Positions 1 to 11,306 of a DNA stretch of 64,000 nucleotides are shown here, one piece after another (position 1 is the stretch's first letter; each line of letters opens with the position of its first letter). This stretch comes from Palleronia pelagia (GTDB lineage: Bacteria; Pseudomonadota; Alphaproteobacteria; Rhodobacterales; Rhodobacteraceae). A model generated the notes under the pieces. That model did no database searches and was not told where the DNA came from. It saw only the letters and a program-made list of their open reading frames with translations. Both the position numbers and the translations under genes were made by a program. The stretch spans positions 1-64,000 of the forward strand of contig NZ_FOCM01000004.1 of assembly GCF_900110115.1 (NCBI RefSeq), in the 5' to 3' direction.

Positions 1-80
1 TCGCGGATCGACCGACCTCCTCCCCGGTCGAATTCGTGTCTGGCGGCGGGACCGACCTCCTCCCCGGTCCCGCCGTCCCA
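1..80 (+). ncRNA. CcsR/cuckoo-type small RNA with two CCUCCUCCC-loop hairpins (5' end may lie outside)
   Basis: Two hairpins in tandem share the same 20-base core (10-29 and 50-69), 40 bases apart. The second has an uninterrupted 11-bp stem, 44-54 with 65-75. The first has a 7-bp stem, 8-14 with 25-31, extendable across a bulge. In both, CCTCCTCCC (16-24 and 56-64) sits in the loop or loop edge. This matches the known alphaproteobacterial cuckoo RNA family, called CcsR in Rhodobacter sphaeroides, where such RNAs are stress-induced, clustered and co-transcribed with a small DUF1127 protein gene. The loop motif is the same sequence as the 16S rRNA anti-Shine-Dalgarno, so it can pair with AGGAGG-like leaders. 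More copies and the DUF1127 gene would be expected left of the window. No T-tract follows the second hairpin, so the 3' end is uncertain. Confidence 0.75.
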
Positions 81-198
81 AATCTCCCCAAAATCCGGAT
101 GACTGCGTGCCACGTTGCGGCGACCGACCTGGCAAGCTCAGGATCGCGCTCGTTTCGAATGTGAAAGCAGGCGGCTAGGGCAGCACACCGAGATGGCG

Positions 199-2595
199 CT
201 AGAACGGCACGTCGTCCGCGCGGTCCGCATCGACGATGAACTTCGCCACGACCTTCTTCTGGCCGGCCTTGTCGAAGCTGATGTCGAGCTTGTCGCCCTC
301 GATCGCCGTTACCGTGCCGTAGCCGAATTTCTTGTGAAACACGCGATCGCCGTCGGTGAAGGACGAGACGGCGTCCAGGTCGATGGTCATGTTTCGCTGT
401 TCGCTGGGCTGGCGCATCGGGCGCTGGCTGCTGCGTTCCTGCAGGCGCCGCCAACCCGGAGAATTGTAGACATCGGCCCGGCCGGCCCGGTCGTGCAGGT
501 CGCTTTGGCTCGCGGCCATGATGGCGGGCGACGCGCTGGACGCCATGCCGGCTGCCCCGTACCCGCCGCCGTAGAGCCCGGGCGGTGTCAGGACCTCGAC
601 ATGGGCTTCGGGCAATTCGTCGATGAAGCGCGACGGCAACGCGGATTGCCACTGGCCATAGACCCGGCGGTTGGCGGCGAAGCTGATGGTGCAGACCCGC
701 TCGGCCCGGGTGATGCCCACATAGGCCAGGCGCCGTTCTTCCTCGAGTCCCTTGAGACCGGATTCGTCCATGCTGCGCTGGGACGGGAACAGTCCGTCCT
801 CCCAGCCCGGCAGGAAGACGGCGGGAAACTCCAGCCCCTTGGCCGCGTGCAGCGTCATGATGCTGACCTTGGCGCCGCCCTCCTCGGTTTCGTTGTCCAT
901 GATCAGCGCGACGTGTTCGAGGAAGCCCTGAAGGTTCTCGAACTGCTCCAGCGCCTTGATCAGTTCTTTCAGGTTCTCCAGCCGGCCGGGCGCCTCGGGC
1001 GTCTTATCGTTCTGCCAATGGGCTGTGTAGCCGGATTCTTCGAGAATGACCTCGGCCAGCTCGATATGACTTTGATCGGGGTCGCGGGTCATCCGGTGCC
1101 AGCGCGCGAGGCCATCGACCAGCACGCGCAGCTCGGCCGCGCCCTTGCCGGTCAGGCCCTTGTCGGCCAGCAGGATTCGCGCGCCGTCGATCAGCGTGGT
1201 GCCGTTGTCGCGGGCCGCGCGCTGGATTTTTTGCTGGGCCTTGTCGCCCAGCCCTCGCTTGGGCGTGTTCACGATCCGCTCGAACGCCAGGTCGTCGTCG
1301 GGGGACACGGCGCAGCGGAAATAGGCCATGGCATCGCGAATCTCGAGACGTTCGTAGAAGCGCGGGCCGCCGATCACGCGATAGGGCAGACCGATGGTCA
1401 GGAATCGGTCCTCGAACGCGCGCATCTGGTGCGACGCGCGCACGAGGATCGCCTGGTCGTCCAGCGACACCGGTTCCATGCCCCGTGTGCCGCGCGACAT
1501 CGATTCGACCTCTTCGCCGATCCAGCGCGCCTCTTCCTCGCCGTCCCAGTGGCCGATCAGGCGCACGCGCTCGCCTTCGGTCAGGTCGGTGAACAGCGTC
1601 TTGCCCAGCCGCCCCTTGTTGGCGTCGATGACGCCGGCGGCCGCGGCCAGGATATGTGGGGTCGAGCGGTAGTTCTGCTCGAGCCGGACGACCTTGGCGC
1701 CCGGGAAGTCCTTCTCGAACCGCAGGATGTTGCCCACCTCGGCGCCGCGCCAGCCATAGATCGACTGGTCGTCGTCGCCCACGCAGCAGATGTTGCGGTG
1801 CCCCTGCGCCAGAAGCCGCAGCCACAGATACTGGGCTACGTTGGTATCCTGATACTCGTCCACCAGGATATAGCGGAACCAGCGCTGGTACTGCGCCAGA
1901 ACGTCGGGATGGTCCTGGAAGATTGTGACCATGTGCAGCAACAGGTCGCCGAAATCGACGGCGTTCAGTGCTTTCAGCCGCTGCTGGTAATAGTCGTAGA
2001 GCTCGGTGCCGCGGTGGTTGAAGGCGCCCGCCTCCGAGGTCGGGACCTTCGCCGGTGTCCAGGCCCGGTTCTTCCAGTGGTCGATGATGCCCGCCAGCTG
2101 CCGTGGCGGCCAGCGCTTCTCGTCGATGCTCTCGGCGACGATCAGCTGCTTGACCAGGCGGATCTGGTCATCGGTGTCGAGGATGGTGAAGTTCGACTTC
2201 AGCCCCACGAGCTCGGCGTGGCGCCGCAGCAGCTTGACGCAGATCGCGTGGAAGGTGCCGAGCCACGGCATCCCTTCGACCGTTTGGCCCAGAAGGCTGC
2301 TCACCCGCTCCTTCATCTCGCGCGCGGCCTTGTTGGTGAAGGTCACGGCCAGGATCTCGTTCGGGCGGGCCTTTCCCTGGGTCATCAGGTGCGCGATGCG
2401 GGACGTCAGCGCGCGGGTCTTGCCGGTGCCCGCCCCCGCCAGCATCAGGACCGGTCCGTCCAGCGTTTCGACCGCTTCGCGCTGCGCCGGGTTCAGACCG
2501 TCGAGATAGGGCGCCGGCCGCGCGGACTGCATGGCGCGCTGCGACAGCGGCACGCTGGCGGCGTCGAACGCGTCGGCTTCGTCGAAACTGCTCAT
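199..2595 (-). CDS. uvrD: ATP-dependent DNA helicase UvrD/PcrA
   Basis: Superfamily 1 3'-5' helicase of 798 residues, acting in nucleotide excision repair, mismatch repair and removal of stalled complexes from DNA. The Walker A motif AGAGTGKT is at residues 53-60. The Walker B/motif II VDEYQD is at 245-250 and motif III GDDDQSIYGWRGA at 273-285. Motif VI, with AYVGITRAE, lies in the C-terminal third. The last 50 residues form the UvrD/PcrA tudor-like domain (VFHKKFGYGTVTAIEGDKLD), which typically contacts RNA polymerase. Length is somewhat above the 720 residues of E. coli UvrD, with a loosely conserved linker before the tudor domain. It is transcribed alone, convergent with the small RNA at the left edge and divergent from the SH3 protein gene. 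Confidence 0.95.
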   Translation of the reverse strand: MSSFDEADAFDAASVPLSQRAMQSARPAPYLDGLNPAQREAVETLDGPVLMLAGAGTGKTRALTSRIAHLMTQGKARPNEILAVTFTNKAAREMKERVSSLLGQTVEGMPWLGTFHAICVKLLRRHAELVGLKSNFTILDTDDQIRLVKQLIVAESIDEKRWPPRQLAGIIDHWKNRAWTPAKVPTSEAGAFNHRGTELYDYYQQRLKALNAVDFGDLLLHMVTIFQDHPDVLAQYQRWFRYILVDEYQDTNVAQYLWLRLLAQGHRNICCVGDDDQSIYGWRGAEVGNILRFEKDFPGAKVVRLEQNYRSTPHILAAAAGVIDANKGRLGKTLFTDLTEGERVRLIGHWDGEEEARWIGEEVESMSRGTRGMEPVSLDDQAILVRASHQMRAFEDRFLTIGLPYRVIGGPRFYERLEIRDAMAYFRCAVSPDDDLAFERIVNTPKRGLGDKAQQKIQRAARDNGTTLIDGARILLADKGLTGKGAAELRVLVDGLARWHRMTRDPDQSHIELAEVILEESGYTAHWQNDKTPEAPGRLENLKELIKALEQFENLQGFLEHVALIMDNETEEGGAKVSIMTLHAAKGLEFPAVFLPGWEDGLFPSQRSMDESGLKGLEEERRLAYVGITRAERVCTISFAANRRVYGQWQSALPSRFIDELPEAHVEVLTPPGLYGGGYGAAGMASSASPAIMAASQSDLHDRAGRADVYNSPGWRRLQERSSQRPMRQPSEQRNMTIDLDAVSSFTDGDRVFHKKFGYGTVTAIEGDKLDISFDKAGQKKVVAKFIVDADRADDVPF

Positions 2596-4394: not shown

Positions 4395-5525
4395 ATGGAT
4401 CTCGACGATACTCACCCATCCCTTTCGGATCTGGCCCGCCGCGCCAAGTGGCGCGTGCCGCATTTCATCTGGGAATATCTCGACAGCGCCACGGGGGACG
4501 AGGGCGCGTCGCGCCGCGCCGCCGCCGCGCTGGACGCGATCACGCTGGTGCCCGGCGTCCTGCGCAACGTGAAACCGGACCTGTCGACCGAGCTTTTCGG
4601 ACACAGCTTCGACCTGCCGGTCGGCATCGCGCCGGTCGGGATGTCGGGGTCGGTCTGGCCCCGGGCCGAGGTCACGCTGGCCGAGGCCGCCGCACGCGCC
4701 AACGCGCCCTTCGGCCTGTCCACGGTGGCCGCCATGACGCCCGAGGAGGTCGGCCCGCACCTGGGCCATGGCGGGTGGTTCCAGCTTTACGCCCCCGGCG
4801 ACCCCGAGATCCGTCGAGACATGCTGGCCCGCGCCCGCGACGCGGGGTTCACAGGTCTGATCCTCACCGGCGACGTGCCGGCGGCGAGCCGGCGCGAACG
4901 TCAGCGCCGGGCGCGGCTGACCAACCCCATGCGTATCACGCCGCGCATCGCCGTGCAGTCGGCGCTGGCACCGTTCTGGGCGGTCGAGACCCTGCGCAAC
5001 GGCAAGCCGCACCTGAAGACGCTCGAGAAATATGCCGATCCGAACGCGGCCACCGGCGCGACGGCGCATATCGGCTACATGCTGCGCACCGCGCCGGACT
5101 GGGCCTATCTCGACGCCCTGCGCGAGGAATGGGATGGCCCATTGATGGTTAAGGGCGTCTTAAGCCCCGATGATGCATCGAGGGCCGCGGGCGTGGCCGA
5201 TGCCGTCTGGGTTTCGAACCACGGCGGCCGGCAATTCGCGGGCGCACCGGCCCCCGCCGACGTGTTGCCCGCGATCCGGCAGGCCGTGGGCCCGGATTAC
5301 CCGCTCATCGCCGACGGGTCGGTCCGGTCGGGAACGGACGTGCTGCGGCTGATCGCGCTGGGCGCCGATTTCGTGATGCTGGGCCGCGCCTTCCACCACG
5401 GGGTCGCCGCGTTCGGCGCGCGCGGTGCCGACCACGCGTTCCACATCCTGCGCGCGGGGATCGAGGCCGACATGGCCCAGCTGGGCATCACCCGCCCGCC
5501 CGAGGTGCGCGCCCACCTGCGATGA
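4395..5525 (+). CDS. FMN-dependent alpha-hydroxy acid oxidase/dehydrogenase (LldD-like)
   Basis: 376-residue TIM-barrel flavoenzyme of the L-lactate dehydrogenase/glycolate oxidase family, which oxidises a 2-hydroxy acid to the 2-oxo acid. The active-site signature SNHGGRQ is at 274-280, with the catalytic base His276. The FMN-binding segment GLSTVAAMT is near 107-115, and the phosphate-binding strands IADGSVRSGTD and FVMLGRAF follow near the C-terminus. It lacks an obvious membrane anchor. The exact substrate cannot be told from sequence: lactate, glycolate and mandelate enzymes share these motifs. L-lactate is plausible because a D-lactate dehydrogenase is also in the window. Confidence 0.8.
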   Translation: MDLDDTHPSLSDLARRAKWRVPHFIWEYLDSATGDEGASRRAAAALDAITLVPGVLRNVKPDLSTELFGHSFDLPVGIAPVGMSGSVWPRAEVTLAEAAARANAPFGLSTVAAMTPEEVGPHLGHGGWFQLYAPGDPEIRRDMLARARDAGFTGLILTGDVPAASRRERQRRARLTNPMRITPRIAVQSALAPFWAVETLRNGKPHLKTLEKYADPNAATGATAHIGYMLRTAPDWAYLDALREEWDGPLMVKGVLSPDDASRAAGVADAVWVSNHGGRQFAGAPAPADVLPAIRQAVGPDYPLIADGSVRSGTDVLRLIALGADFVMLGRAFHHGVAAFGARGADHAFHILRAGIEADMAQLGITRPPEVRAHLR

Positions 5526-5659: not shown

Positions 5660-6400
5660 ATGTTCACATCCGACAACCCGGAGGTCCTGTCTTCGCTCCT
5701 CGATGCGTTCCAGGTGCCCATGTTCGTTGCCGATTGCGAAGTCGATGACGATGCCGACCCGGTCTATCGACTGATCGCGATCAATGACTGCCATGCCCGG
5801 GCAAGCCAGATGGACAAGGCCCAGGTCGCGGACCGCCGCATCGACGAGTTGCTGTCGCCCGCGGACGCCCGGCACGTCGTCGACAAGTATCATGGCTGCG
5901 TCCGGTCCGGCCAACCGGCGGAATATCAGGAGACGCTCACGCTGAACGGATCGGAAACCCAATGGTACACGACGCTGATCCCCGCGGTCAGCGATGCCGG
6001 GCGCAAGCGGGTTATCGGAAATGCGGTCTTATTGAAGACCGAAGACGGCGCGCGCATCTTCGAGGACATCACCTATTTCTCGATGCAGTCGCAGTTCCAG
6101 CTGTCACGCATGTCCACGTATCTCGACGCTCTGGATCACCGGGCCGGTCCCATCGGGCGGGTCGACCTGGAGATCCTCTCCGCCTTGTGCCGCACGGTGG
6201 ACCGGGCACTGGAAGACATCCGAAGCCTGTCCGAGCCGCAGGTGGCAGCCGTCAGGGACGCCTCGCAGGGCTACCTGATCTCCATCTCCGCAAACGACGT
6301 GGCGAATACGCCGTCGCCCGAGGATGCGGCCAACAGCTCTCAGGACCCTGTGCGAAAATCGCTGGAACAGATCTCGTCCGTGCTCAGACCCGGGGCCTGA
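5660..6400 (+). CDS. PAS-domain protein of unknown function
   Basis: 246 residues, starting at the ATG preceded by GAGGGGAA rather than an in-frame GTG 18 bases upstream. The N-terminal about 125 residues look like a PAS sensor fold (PMFVADCEV, YRLIAINDCHA, QWYTTLIP). No transmitter, GGDEF, HTH or other output domain follows. The C-terminal half is mostly predicted helix, with a polar tail rich in Ser and Asn. It could be a stand-alone sensor acting on a partner kinase or on a regulator elsewhere; no partner is adjacent. The upstream region is AT-rich for this genome and contains the palindrome CGAAATTTCG at 5568-5577. Confidence 0.55.
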   Translation: MFTSDNPEVLSSLLDAFQVPMFVADCEVDDDADPVYRLIAINDCHARASQMDKAQVADRRIDELLSPADARHVVDKYHGCVRSGQPAEYQETLTLNGSETQWYTTLIPAVSDAGRKRVIGNAVLLKTEDGARIFEDITYFSMQSQFQLSRMSTYLDALDHRAGPIGRVDLEILSALCRTVDRALEDIRSLSEPQVAAVRDASQGYLISISANDVANTPSPEDAANSSQDPVRKSLEQISSVLRPGA

Positions 6401-6479
6401 TCGCCAGATCGGATATAAAGACCTCTTTCCCCCGGGTCGGGGCGGGCTATGCTGCACTTGCAAACAGGGGAAGCACAGC

Positions 6480-9400
6480 ATGGCCGATTTCGAAAAGATC
6501 CTGATCGCGAACCGGGGCGAGATTGCAATCCGCGTGATGCGCGCCGCGAACGAGTTGGGCAAGCGCACCGTGGCGGTCTACGCAGACGAGGACAAGCTGA
6601 GCCTTCACCGCTTCAAGGCGGACGAGGCCTATCGTATCGGCGCGGGGATGGGCCCGGTGGCGGCCTACCTGTCCATCGACGAGATCATCCGCGTGGCCCG
6701 CGCCTGCGGCGCCGACGCCATCCACCCCGGCTATGGCCTGCTATCGGAGAACCCCGAGTTCGTCGACGCCTGCGCCCGCAACGGCATCACCTTCATCGGG
6801 CCCAAGGCAGACACCATGCGGGCCCTGGGCGACAAGGCCAGCGCCCGCCGCGTGGCCATCCAGGCCGGGGTCCCCGTCATCCCGGCATCCGAAGTCCTGA
6901 CCGACGACATGGAGGCGACGCGCAAGGCCGCCGAGGACATCGGCTACCCCATGATGCTGAAGGCCAGCTGGGGCGGCGGCGGCCGCGGCATGCGCCCGAT
7001 CCTGTCGCCCAGGGAGCTGGAGGAAAAGGTCCGCGAGGCCCGGCGCGAGGCCGAGGCCGCCTTCGGTAACGGCGAGGGTTACCTCGAAAAGATGATCGAG
7101 CGGGCGCGCCACGTCGAAGTCCAGATCCTCGGCGACCAGCACGGCCAGATCTACCACCTGTGGGAACGCGATTGCTCGGTCCAGCGGCGCAACCAGAAGG
7201 TCGTCGAACGCGCACCGGCCCCGTACCTGTCGGGCGCTCAGCGCGAAAAGCTTTGCAACCTCGGCAAGAAGATCGCCGAGCACGTGGGCTACGAATGCGC
7301 CGGCACCATCGAGTTCCTGATGGACATGGATACCGGCGATTTCTACTTCATCGAGGTGAACCCCCGCGTCCAGGTCGAGCATACCGTGACCGAAGAGGTC
7401 ACGGGCATCGACGTGGTCCGCGCCCAGATCCTGATCGCCGAGGGCAAGAGCCTGGTCGAGGCCACGGGCACCGCGTCGCAATACGACGTGAAACTGGACG
7501 GCCACGCGATCCAGTGCCGCATCACCACCGAGGATCCGACCAACAACTTCATCCCCGATTACGGCCGCATCACCGCCTATCGCGGCGCCACGGGCATGGG
7601 CATCCGCCTGGATGGCGGAACCGCCTATTCCGGTGCGATCATCACCCGCTACTACGACTCGCTTCTGGAAAAGGTCACGGCCTGGGCCCCCACGCCCGAG
7701 GCCGCGATCGCCCGGATGGACCGCGCCCTGCGTGAATTCCGCATCCGCGGGGTGAACACGAATATCGAGTTCGTCATCAATCTGCTGAAGCACCCGACCT
7801 TCCTGAACTACGAATACCACACCAAGTTCATCGACCAGACGCCCGAGCTGTTCTCGTTCAAGCAGCGGCGCGACCGGGCCACCAAGATCCTGCGCTACAT
7901 CGCGGACATCACGGTGAACGGCCACCCCGAGACCGAGGGCCGTACGCGACCCCATGCCGAGGCCAAGACACCGGTGCCCCCCGCCCCGCGCACCGAGGGC
8001 ATCCCCCAGGGCACGCGCAACATCCTGGACGATTTCGGCCCGCAGGCGGTGGCCGACTGGATGCTGGACCAGAAGCAGCTGCTGATCACCGACACCACCA
8101 TGCGCGACGGGCACCAGTCGCTGCTGGCCACGCGGATGCGCTCGATCGACATGACCCGCGTCGCGCCGGCCTATGCCGCCAACATGCCGCAGCTTTTCTC
8201 GATGGAATGCTGGGGCGGCGCGACCTTCGACGTGGCCTACCGCTTCTTGCAGGAATGTCCGTGGCAGCGCCTGCGCGACCTGCGCGCGGCCATGCCGAAC
8301 CTGATGACCCAGATGCTGCTGCGCGCGTCGAACGGCGTGGGCTACACCAACTATCCCGACAACGTGGTGCGCGGGTTCATCCGGCAGGCGGCCAGCAGCG
8401 GCGTCGACGTCTTCCGCGTGTTCGACAGCCTCAACTGGGTCGAGAACATGCGCGTCGCCATGGACGAGGTCATCGCCCAGAACAAGGTCTGCGAGGGCAC
8501 CATCTGCTATACCGGCAACATGATGGACCCGGACCGGTCCAAGTACGACCGCGACTACTACGTGAAGATGGGCAAGGAGCTGAAGGCCGCCGGCGCCCAC
8601 GTGCTTGGTGTGAAGGACATGGCCGGCCTGCTGAAACCCAACGCCGCGCGTGTCCTGATCACCGCCCTGAAGGAAGAGGTCGGCCTGCCCATCCACTTCC
8701 ACACCCACGACACGGCCGGCATCGCCTGCGGCACGATCCTCGCCTGCGCCGAGTCGGGCGTCGACGCGGTCGATTGCGCCATGGACGCGCTGTCGGGCAA
8801 CACCAGCCAGGCCACCATGGGCACCGTGGTCGAAGCGCTCGCCGGGACCGAGCGGGACACCGGTCTCGACATCGCGGCCATCCGCGAGATCAGCAATTAC
8901 TGGGAGGCCGTGCGCGAACACTACGCGGCGTTCGAGTCGGGTCTCCAGGCCCCCGCCTCCGAGGTCTATCTGCACGAGATGCCGGGCGGGCAGTTCACAA
9001 ATCTCAAGGCGCAGGCGCGGTCAATGGGGCTGGAAGAGCGCTGGCACGAGGTCGCCCAGACCTATGCCGACGTGAACCAGATGTTCGGCGACATCGTGAA
9101 GGTGACGCCGTCCTCGAAAGTGGTGGGCGATATGGCCCTGATGATGGTGGCCCAGGGCCTCACCCGCGCCGATGTCGAGGATCCCAAGAAGGACGTATCC
9201 TTCCCAGACTCGGTAGTCGAAATGATGAAGGGCTACCTGGGCAAGCCGCCGGGAGGCTGGCCCGAGGGCATCCAGAAGAAGATCCTGAAGAACGAAAAGC
9301 CGCTGGAGGATCGCCCCGGGAAAACGCTGAAGCCTGTGGACCTTGAAAAGGCACGGGCCGAGGCCGCCGAGGCCTGTGGCGGCGAAATCGACGACGAGGA

Positions 9401-9920
9401 CCTGATGGGATATCTGATGTATCCCAAGGTCTTCACCGAGTATCGCCTGCGCCACGAGGAATACGGCCCCGTGCGCACCCTGCCCACGCCCACCTTCTTC
9501 TACGGCATGGAAACGGGTGACGAGATCACCGCCGAAATCGACCCGGGCAAGACGCTGGAAATCCGGCTTCAGGCCCTTGGGGAGACGAACGACCAGGGCG
9601 AGGTCAAGGTCTTCTTCGAACTCAACGGCCAACCCCGCACGGTTCGCGTGCCCAACCGCAAGATCGCCGGCGCCGCGGGGGTGAAGCAGAAGGCCGAGCC
9701 CGGCAACACCAACCACGTGGGCGCGCCCATGCCGGGTGTCGTCGGCTCGATCGCGGTCGAGGTCGGCAAGGCCGTCAAGCAGGGCGACATGCTGCTGACC
9801 ATCGAGGCCATGAAGATGGAGACGGGCCTTCACGCCGACCGCGACGCCACGATCAAGGCGATCCATGTCGCACCCGGCGCGCAGATCGACGCCAAGGACC
9901 TTTTGATCGAATACGAATGA
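6480..9920 (+). CDS. pyc: Pyruvate carboxylase
   Basis: 1146 residues, the usual length for the single-chain alpha4 enzyme. It makes oxaloacetate from pyruvate, bicarbonate and ATP, the main anaplerotic route to the TCA cycle. Domains in order: biotin carboxylase/ATP-grasp (about 1-460, with the glycine-rich loop KASWGGGGRGM), carboxyltransferase TIM barrel (about 540-810, beginning TDTTMRDGHQSLLATR), PYC-specific domain, and C-terminal biotinyl domain with EAMKM, biotin on about Lys1112. The ATG has AGGGGAAG upstream. An in-frame extension starting 156 bases earlier is rejected because it overlaps the preceding gene and adds non-homologous residues. It stands alone, with the LysR gene convergent to its end. 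Confidence 0.97.
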   Translation: MADFEKILIANRGEIAIRVMRAANELGKRTVAVYADEDKLSLHRFKADEAYRIGAGMGPVAAYLSIDEIIRVARACGADAIHPGYGLLSENPEFVDACARNGITFIGPKADTMRALGDKASARRVAIQAGVPVIPASEVLTDDMEATRKAAEDIGYPMMLKASWGGGGRGMRPILSPRELEEKVREARREAEAAFGNGEGYLEKMIERARHVEVQILGDQHGQIYHLWERDCSVQRRNQKVVERAPAPYLSGAQREKLCNLGKKIAEHVGYECAGTIEFLMDMDTGDFYFIEVNPRVQVEHTVTEEVTGIDVVRAQILIAEGKSLVEATGTASQYDVKLDGHAIQCRITTEDPTNNFIPDYGRITAYRGATGMGIRLDGGTAYSGAIITRYYDSLLEKVTAWAPTPEAAIARMDRALREFRIRGVNTNIEFVINLLKHPTFLNYEYHTKFIDQTPELFSFKQRRDRATKILRYIADITVNGHPETEGRTRPHAEAKTPVPPAPRTEGIPQGTRNILDDFGPQAVADWMLDQKQLLITDTTMRDGHQSLLATRMRSIDMTRVAPAYAANMPQLFSMECWGGATFDVAYRFLQECPWQRLRDLRAAMPNLMTQMLLRASNGVGYTNYPDNVVRGFIRQAASSGVDVFRVFDSLNWVENMRVAMDEVIAQNKVCEGTICYTGNMMDPDRSKYDRDYYVKMGKELKAAGAHVLGVKDMAGLLKPNAARVLITALKEEVGLPIHFHTHDTAGIACGTILACAESGVDAVDCAMDALSGNTSQATMGTVVEALAGTERDTGLDIAAIREISNYWEAVREHYAAFESGLQAPASEVYLHEMPGGQFTNLKAQARSMGLEERWHEVAQTYADVNQMFGDIVKVTPSSKVVGDMALMMVAQGLTRADVEDPKKDVSFPDSVVEMMKGYLGKPPGGWPEGIQKKILKNEKPLEDRPGKTLKPVDLEKARAEAAEACGGEIDDEDLMGYLMYPKVFTEYRLRHEEYGPVRTLPTPTFFYGMETGDEITAEIDPGKTLEIRLQALGETNDQGEVKVFFELNGQPRTVRVPNRKIAGAAGVKQKAEPGNTNHVGAPMPGVVGSIAVEVGKAVKQGDMLLTIEAMKMETGLHADRDATIKAIHVAPGAQIDAKDLLIEYE

Positions 9921-11135: not shown

Positions 11136-11210
11136 GCGGGCGTAGCTCAGGGGTAGAGCATTACCTTGCCAAGGTAAGGGTCGTGAGTTCGAATCTCATC
11201 GCCCGCTCCA
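11136..11210 (+). tRNA. tRNA-Gly (GCC), first copy
   Basis: 75 bases including an encoded CCA. Acceptor arms GCGGGCG and CGCCCGC pair perfectly. The D-arm is AGCTCAGGGGTAGAGC, the anticodon loop TTGCCAA gives GCC, and the T-loop is TTCGAATC. It is identical in sequence to the second copy 21 bases downstream. Confidence 0.98.
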
Positions 11211-11231
11211 TCAAGCAGACCGATCTGGCGC

Positions 11232-11306
11232 GCGGGCGTAGCTCAGGGGTAGAGCATTACCTTGCCAAGGTAAGGGTCGTGAGTTCGAATCTCATCGCCC
11301 GCTCCA
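11232..11306 (+). tRNA. tRNA-Gly (GCC), second copy
   Basis: A 75-base exact duplicate of the preceding tRNA gene, CCA included, separated by a 21-base spacer. Both copies are probably in one transcript that ends at the terminator at 11319-11340. Confidence 0.98.

Follow-up and report, generated by a model that had tools for sequence, protein, structure and literature searches.

The probable last unit of a CcsR-type hairpin array in Palleronia pelagia and a PhaR-like element predicted over a DUF1127 promoter

The closest described counterparts of the locus analyzed here are the CcsR1-4 RNAs of Rhodobacter sphaeroides (RF02791; CIN1/cuckoo), which are tandem two-hairpin units with CCUCCUCCC in both loops, located downstream of a DUF1127 gene on the same strand and of an RpoH-like promoter sequence, and ending in a Rho-independent terminator at the 3' end of ccaF1-CcsR1-4. 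In excerpts of four papers (PMC10253847, PMC7866481, PMC8307010, PMC8625941) these RNAs are described as sharing a transcript with the DUF1127 gene ccaF1, driven by an RpoHI/RpoHII promoter, as being processed by RNase E and dependent on Hfq, and as affecting C1 metabolism, glutathione and the pyruvate dehydrogenase complex. The Sinorhizobium RNAs SmelA075 and SmelA099 have several hairpins with the same anti-Shine-Dalgarno loop, three or four per RNA, and an excerpt of the same study proposes that such loops block ribosome binding sites (PMC3927594).

In this study, we analyzed a window of 64,000 nucleotides, by which we mean the whole stretch of P. pelagia DNA, beginning at base 1 of contig C6. 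With a probability of about 0.92, its positions 1–80 are the two-hairpin unit at the 3' end of a CcsR-type (cuckoo/CIN1) array that begins on another contig, C14, behind a ccaF1-like DUF1127 gene. This reading draws on the sequence, the predicted structure and its covariation in relatives, synteny and a promoter-like sequence. The CCUCCUCCC loops, the tandem two-hairpin units and the upstream DUF1127 gene on the same strand are as in R. sphaeroides, with a putative RpoH-like promoter sequence before that gene, whereas the window sequence has diverged from CcsR1-4 and has no T-run after its last hairpin; the two-hairpin unit also differs from the three or four hairpins of the Sinorhizobium RNAs. 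The cuckoo/CcsR class named in the original prediction fits the loop motif, the two-hairpin unit, the siblings, the DUF1127 gene, the covariation and the conserved position. The RNA at positions 1–80 adds a member to a known class and, as an RNA, is ordinary.

The two-hairpin unit at the contig edge

One CCTCCTCCC motif lies in the loop of each of the two predicted hairpins (Table 1), as had been proposed. The minimum free energy of positions 1–82 was −45.4 kcal/mol compared to a shuffle mean of −28.2 (z −5.8; none of 1000 shuffles was as low), and two motif hairpins with stems of at least 9 pairs within 60 nt were not found in any of 200 dinucleotide shuffles of the whole window. The hairpins had been described as near-identical, which is accurate for the loops and innermost stems and inaccurate for the outer stems, which differ, and the perfect stem of the second hairpin, described as 11 bp long, proved to have 13 pairs. 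A search of both strands of the 64 kb located the 9-mer GACCGACCT at 10, 50 and 122. The last of these, at 122–130, is real, as had been noted, and since the 9-mer occurs just three times in 64 kb it is likelier, though unproven, to be a decayed repeat than a chance match. No T-run follows hairpin B, and a scan of positions 1–600 restricted to loops of 3–8 found no terminator-like site, a difference from the R. sphaeroides operon.

Table 1. Positions of the hairpin unit, the promoter elements and neighbouring genes. Plain ranges are positions in the window; ranges with a contig name refer to other contigs of this genome (G000).
Feature	Position	Strand	Details
Hairpin A, last CcsR unit	2..38	+	13 pairs, one bulge; loop 15-24; MFE fold, shuffles, Rfam CcsR1 alignment
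CCUCCUCCC anti-Shine-Dalgarno loop of hairpin A	16..24	+	
Hairpin B, last CcsR unit	42..77	+	13 perfect pairs; loop 55-64; fold, covariation in relatives
CCUCCUCCC anti-Shine-Dalgarno loop of hairpin B	56..64	+	
GCGGCGACCGACCT, possible decayed hairpin copy	117..130	+	Contains the third and final GACCGACCT of the window; shared with contig C23 of sister genome G068
Convergent uvrD/pcrA helicase gene, conserved 3' neighbour of the array	199..2595	-	Pfam UvrD-helicase and PcrA_UvrD_tudor; synteny
FMN-dependent dehydrogenase	4395-5525		Fits C1/pyruvate theme
Pyruvate carboxylase	6324-9920		Fits C1/pyruvate theme
DUF1127 gene	C14:155-367	-	PF06568, E 4e-13
Bipartite PhaR-like element (predicted) over RpoH-like promoter	C14:421-466 (locus L210)	-	In 55/61 named array loci
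Second element copy	C9:15959-16004 (locus L209:1678-1899)	-	Sole other genomic place with both halves, each with at most 1 mismatch

No Rfam family matched positions 1–80 at its gathering threshold. When matches were accepted by E-value, CcsR1 (RF02791) was the best match to the window (42.0 bits, E 4.3e-9), truncated by the contig end, with ar14 (RF02344) second (38.1 bits). Their gathering cut-offs are 65.3 and 58.8, respectively, and the window reached neither; we therefore did not file it under RF02791 as curated. The sibling hairpins on C14 scored weakly with both models (CcsR1, 20.1 bits; ar14, 27.4 bits). In a scan of 61 family genomes, under stricter filter settings at which weak matches are missed, CcsR1 matched 48 at E ≤ 1e-4 and only 4 passed 65.3, so that this cut-off marks close relatives of CcsR1 rather than the class. 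At 40–42 bits, the window lies among the scores of the family genomes, most of which are also under the cut-off, and its covariance score is thus not far below those of the family.

A model built from the units of 40 relatives with the window left out (R1), among which L046 and L048 are named Palleronia and are probably of the same genus, matched the window at 5–82 with 49.8 bits, the next match in the window having 6.9 bits. R1 pairs hairpin B alone, so its match covers hairpin A and leaves it unpaired, and its E-values are rough. Across the genome, its two best matches were C6:5-82 (48.2 bits) and C14:77-149 (23.8 bits), followed by matches of 18.8 and 15.7 bits. In the alignment (A1), double compensatory changes were present at 11 of the 11 pairs of hairpin B and 97.3% of cells were paired, counts that may be slightly favourable because A1 comprises 40 of 54 two-hairpin units, the other 14 having been excluded manually because of unusual spacing or high similarity, with no scored rule. 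None of 500 shuffles or six slides matched this covariation. Hairpin A was inconsistently aligned and a chimera control was used for it instead: at least 8 pairs were present in 48 of 58 real stems and in 21% of chimeras. For hairpin B, the corresponding values for stems of at least 10 pairs were 48 of 58 and 45%, the latter being high because the stems resemble one another between loci. Motif, fold, chance tests and covariation together place CCUCCUCCC-loop hairpins in a two-hairpin unit, a feature of CcsR membership, at the window's edge.

An array over two contigs beside uvrD

Because the left edge of the window is a contig end (C6:1), the array is cut there. Sibling motifs were found on the minus strand at C14:28-36 and 124-132. 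Read in the sense of the array, the start of C14 holds the DUF1127 gene, a hairpin beginning 7 nt past its stop codon, a spacer, a further hairpin and the contig end, which terminates in CTGGCGGCGGGA, the same sequence as window positions 40–51 on the 5' side of hairpin B. There are 16 copies of CCTCCTCCC in the genome, four of them paired at the ends of C6 and C14; the 12 elsewhere were rejected as siblings as each is single, with no partner in the 601–801 bases around it. From relatives, not reads, we infer that the ends of C14 and C6 adjoin as one array whose 5' end is on C14, in which case the four motifs at these ends would belong to tandem homologous units. The sibling copies anticipated elsewhere in the genome were therefore recovered in corrected form, as what would be one tandem locus over two contigs, and the anticipated same-strand DUF1127 gene lies upstream of the window if the two contigs adjoin.

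Contiguous arrays are present in relatives, and in 10 of 14 genus genomes the DUF1127 gene and uvrD/pcrA are convergent on one contig. The array is split at contig ends in G000 and in the sister genome G068, which has an identical DUF1127 protein and five motifs, is split at the same place and has one more complete hairpin on the DUF1127 side. Two further genomes (G062 and G067) have 5 and 6 copies of CCTCCTCC beside uvrD, with their best DUF1127 match on another contig, and a single motif was found in G066. The array of G069 consists of 6.2 copies of a 104-base unit with 93% matches. Most likely, tandem repeats broke the assembly at C14/C6.

The neighbouring helicase gene, for which the best NCBIfam model was pcrA with a score below its cut-off, was compared with named relatives that are the best 80 of 567 confirmed uvrD loci. 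At least two motif hairpins (stems of at least 6 pairs, array strand) were found at 60 of the 80, and at least two motifs, by motif alone, at 61; 20 loci had none or one motif hairpin in the available sequence, which for some ends at contig ends (L108, L117). The array strand beside uvrD is fixed. The largest array has 25 motifs within 1.5 kb (L216), and at 34 of 45 loci the hairpins were closer to others of their own locus than to those of different loci (mean best identity, 0.595 versus 0.502), suggesting a homogenisation within loci that is moderate and not universal.

The location of the hairpins between convergent genes would suit a mere bidirectional terminator between DUF1127 and uvrD with no trans-acting RNA, as would the occurrence of TTTT (within the last 4 stem bases and the next 8) at the last hairpin in 40 of 60 relatives compared to 19 of 268 other hairpins, a difference which indicates that in relatives the last hairpin often doubles as a terminator. 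We consider this explanation of the hairpins very improbable, however, as no T-run follows in the window, up to 25 motifs lie downstream of a single element (L216), and compensatory changes occur in the stems that enclose the loop motif, whose own constancy in the alignment is by construction because the motif served to pick the units. In addition, excerpts of the literature describe the R. sphaeroides homologues as trans-acting sRNAs. It is more improbable still that the hairpins are a DNA-level palindromic repeat (REP-like) spread through the genome: they are GC-rich inverted repeats, in tandem and partly homogenised within loci, but 12 of the 16 genomic CCTCCTCCC are single within the 601–801 bases around each, R1 yields just two weak matches beyond C6 and C14, and the strand beside uvrD does not vary.

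In the array proposed here, transcription, processing and targets would, by homology with R. sphaeroides, proceed from an RpoH-type sigma factor that transcribes the DUF1127 gene and the array as a single RNA, which RNase E would cut into units. The two CCUCCUCCC loops of each unit may then pair with purine-rich Shine-Dalgarno sequences, lowering the translation of target mRNAs.

The window had also been characterized as a region rich in C1 and pyruvate genes. This stands for the pyruvate carboxylase and the FMN-dependent dehydrogenase, but not for the remainder of the 17 distinct window ORFs scanned, which gave no match or had assorted functions (polyphosphate kinase, choline ABC transporter, a carboxylase, tRNA-related enzymes), and nothing in the positions of the metabolic genes connects them with the RNA. 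Two tandem tRNA genes at 11136–11303 of the window have equal Rfam scores and agree in their aligned letters. On its other side, the DUF1127-CcsR operon has mraZ (PF02381, L210:1184-1687) as divergent 5' neighbour. The sRNA UpsM is described, in excerpted literature, as arising from the mraZ 5' UTR in R. sphaeroides, and therefore two sRNA loci may adjoin here. A search of 2.5 kb of L210 with Rfam (E ≤ 0.1) returned ar14 and CcsR1 matches only.

The predicted PhaR-like element

The DUF1127 gene on C14 is preceded by TTG-N17-CCTAT, which is RpoH-like by the RpoHI/RpoHII consensus (-35 TTG, -12 TAT) in an excerpt of PMC10673084. A TGC/GCA dyad lies in its spacer and a second dyad 31 bp upstream of that one. 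The strict promoter pattern TTG-N16-18-CYTAT was found upstream in 14 of 43 loci. We defined the bipartite element as TGCTGCATRGCAGCA followed by ATTGTGCANNNGCAGCA at 29 or 30 nt, start to start, with at most 5 mismatches in all. Of 61 array loci, 55 have it on the array strand, a count that is not fully independent because we derived the consensus by visual inspection of family genomes that overlap in part with these loci. It was absent from all 19 loci without arrays, from the opposite strand of all 80 loci and from all 400 two-base-block shuffles. Its column conservation was measured on loci chosen for matching the element. The six array loci in which it was not found are L045, L063, L065, L083, L097 and L120, and in L063 the array starts too close to the sequence end to show it. 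In 12 of the 55 named loci (L046, L053, L055, L059, L080, L091, L102, L103, L104, L105, L110 and L122), the second half starts 78–118 nt before the first motif, too little to accommodate a DUF1127 gene between them. Start codons picked by script were too far upstream in some loci, where distances to the start are unreliable.

The exact pattern occurred at 61 places in 60 of 198 family genomes, 138 having no exact match, and the reversed pattern at none. The surroundings of 30 of these 61 places were examined. Two or more motifs followed within 1.5 kb at 27 of them, a DUF1127 match was located no more than 600 nt away at 26, and none of the 30 lacked both. The same predicted operator precedes a second DUF1127-like gene in the P. 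pelagia genome, its copy on C9 lying ~60 nt before a gene for a 73-aa protein with 35% identity over 62 residues to the first and a Pfam DUF1127 score of 15.1 bits, under the cut-off of 23.3. No array was seen behind this gene in the sequence read. Shortly past its stop codon is GGACCGACCTGACCCCG, which resembles a degenerate hairpin B.

PhaR, a polyhydroxybutyrate (PHB)-sensing repressor, is predicted to control the DUF1127-CcsR operon. We put forward tentatively, at somewhat less than even odds, that in Rhodobacteraceae PhaR directly targets the DUF1127-CcsR array through the two dyads, which would flank the -35 of an RpoH-type promoter. The PhaR site of R. sphaeroides is given as CTGCNNNGCAG in an excerpt of PMC12542648; this dyad is present exactly in the first half-element (C14:452-466, minus strand) and likewise in 41 of 55 element-bearing relatives. 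The first half also shares its arms with sites before this genome's phaC (TGCTGC-TGT-GCAGCA, ~20 nt before the start) and phasin gene phaP (TTGCTGC-AGT-GCAGAA, upstream). PhaR itself is encoded in the genome (TIGR01848, 153.7 bits), PhaC was confirmed by Pfam and the phasin was just under its Pfam cut-off. A genome search for the first half with one mismatch returned six places (one for the reversed-pattern control), namely two DUF1127-type promoters, one site before phaC and three places in long open stretches (C9:1549, C11:691997 and C17:11492, inside stretches of 424, 565 and 424 codons), which we dismissed as coding. The bare TGC/GCA pattern proves little, as five of the seven TGC-N3-4-GCA sites in the 5.2-kb pha region are inside open frames of that strand.

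A comparable arrangement is described in excerpts of PMC12542648 for S. meliloti, where PhaR (AniA) recognizes CAATTGTGCACCGCAGCATTA in the MmgR sRNA promoter, a site listed as efficiently bound in EMSA, and where the phaP1 and phaP2 promoters have two PhaR sites each, flanking the -35. The MmgR site is similar to the second element half, ATTGTGCACCCGCAGCAT, in which the dyad centre is one base longer and where PhaR binding is predicted. MmgR is a different RNA from CcsR. Our literature search found no bacterial paper that joins PhaR with CcsR or CcaF1; five papers on other subjects contain both PhaR and CcsR as words, and a Rhodovulum paper (PMC9230146) mentions phaR as well as DUF1127 proteins, in passages that are unrelated.

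Several traits of the element count against PhaR. A second dyad with the 3-nt centre of PhaR sites was not found, the second half being TGC-N4-GCA with an extra centre base, the layout is LysR-like, and the first half keeps an AT(A/G) centre that is absent from the pha sites. The dyads of the element, ~31 bp apart with the second overlapping the -35, resemble a LysR-type layout. The element could be the site of a LysR-type regulator instead, comparable to VtlR/LsrB, which in Agrobacterium serves an AbcR RNA and the gene of a small protein; we view this as less likely than not. According to an excerpt of PMC7486931, abcR1 and a gene for a small protein are activated directly by VtlR. The second dyad has a 4-nt centre, and PhaR sites have 3. 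The VtlR box GCAT-N3-TG-N3-T, however, was matched in 6 of 55 element regions and absent in 49, a count made without a shuffle control, LsrB/VtlR is reported in an excerpt of PMC11975290 to be unique to Rhizobiales, and the arms of the first half equal those before this genome's phaC and phaP.

If PhaR is the regulator, the dose of anti-Shine-Dalgarno RNA would, given two dyads that flank the -35 of an RpoH-type promoter, be set jointly by stress sigma factors and the PHB store of the cell. The number of tandem units may represent an evolutionary control of the same dose.

Meaning for the CcsR class

The CcsR class is likely under-annotated, as 44 of the 48 matching family genomes fall under the Rfam cut-off, and G000 and G068 suggest that arrays of this class can break assemblies. 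The predicted PhaR-like element, which marks 55 of the 61 array loci, is the new part, and suggests that the array may also answer to the state of carbon storage. It makes the link between CcsR and carbon metabolism directly testable.
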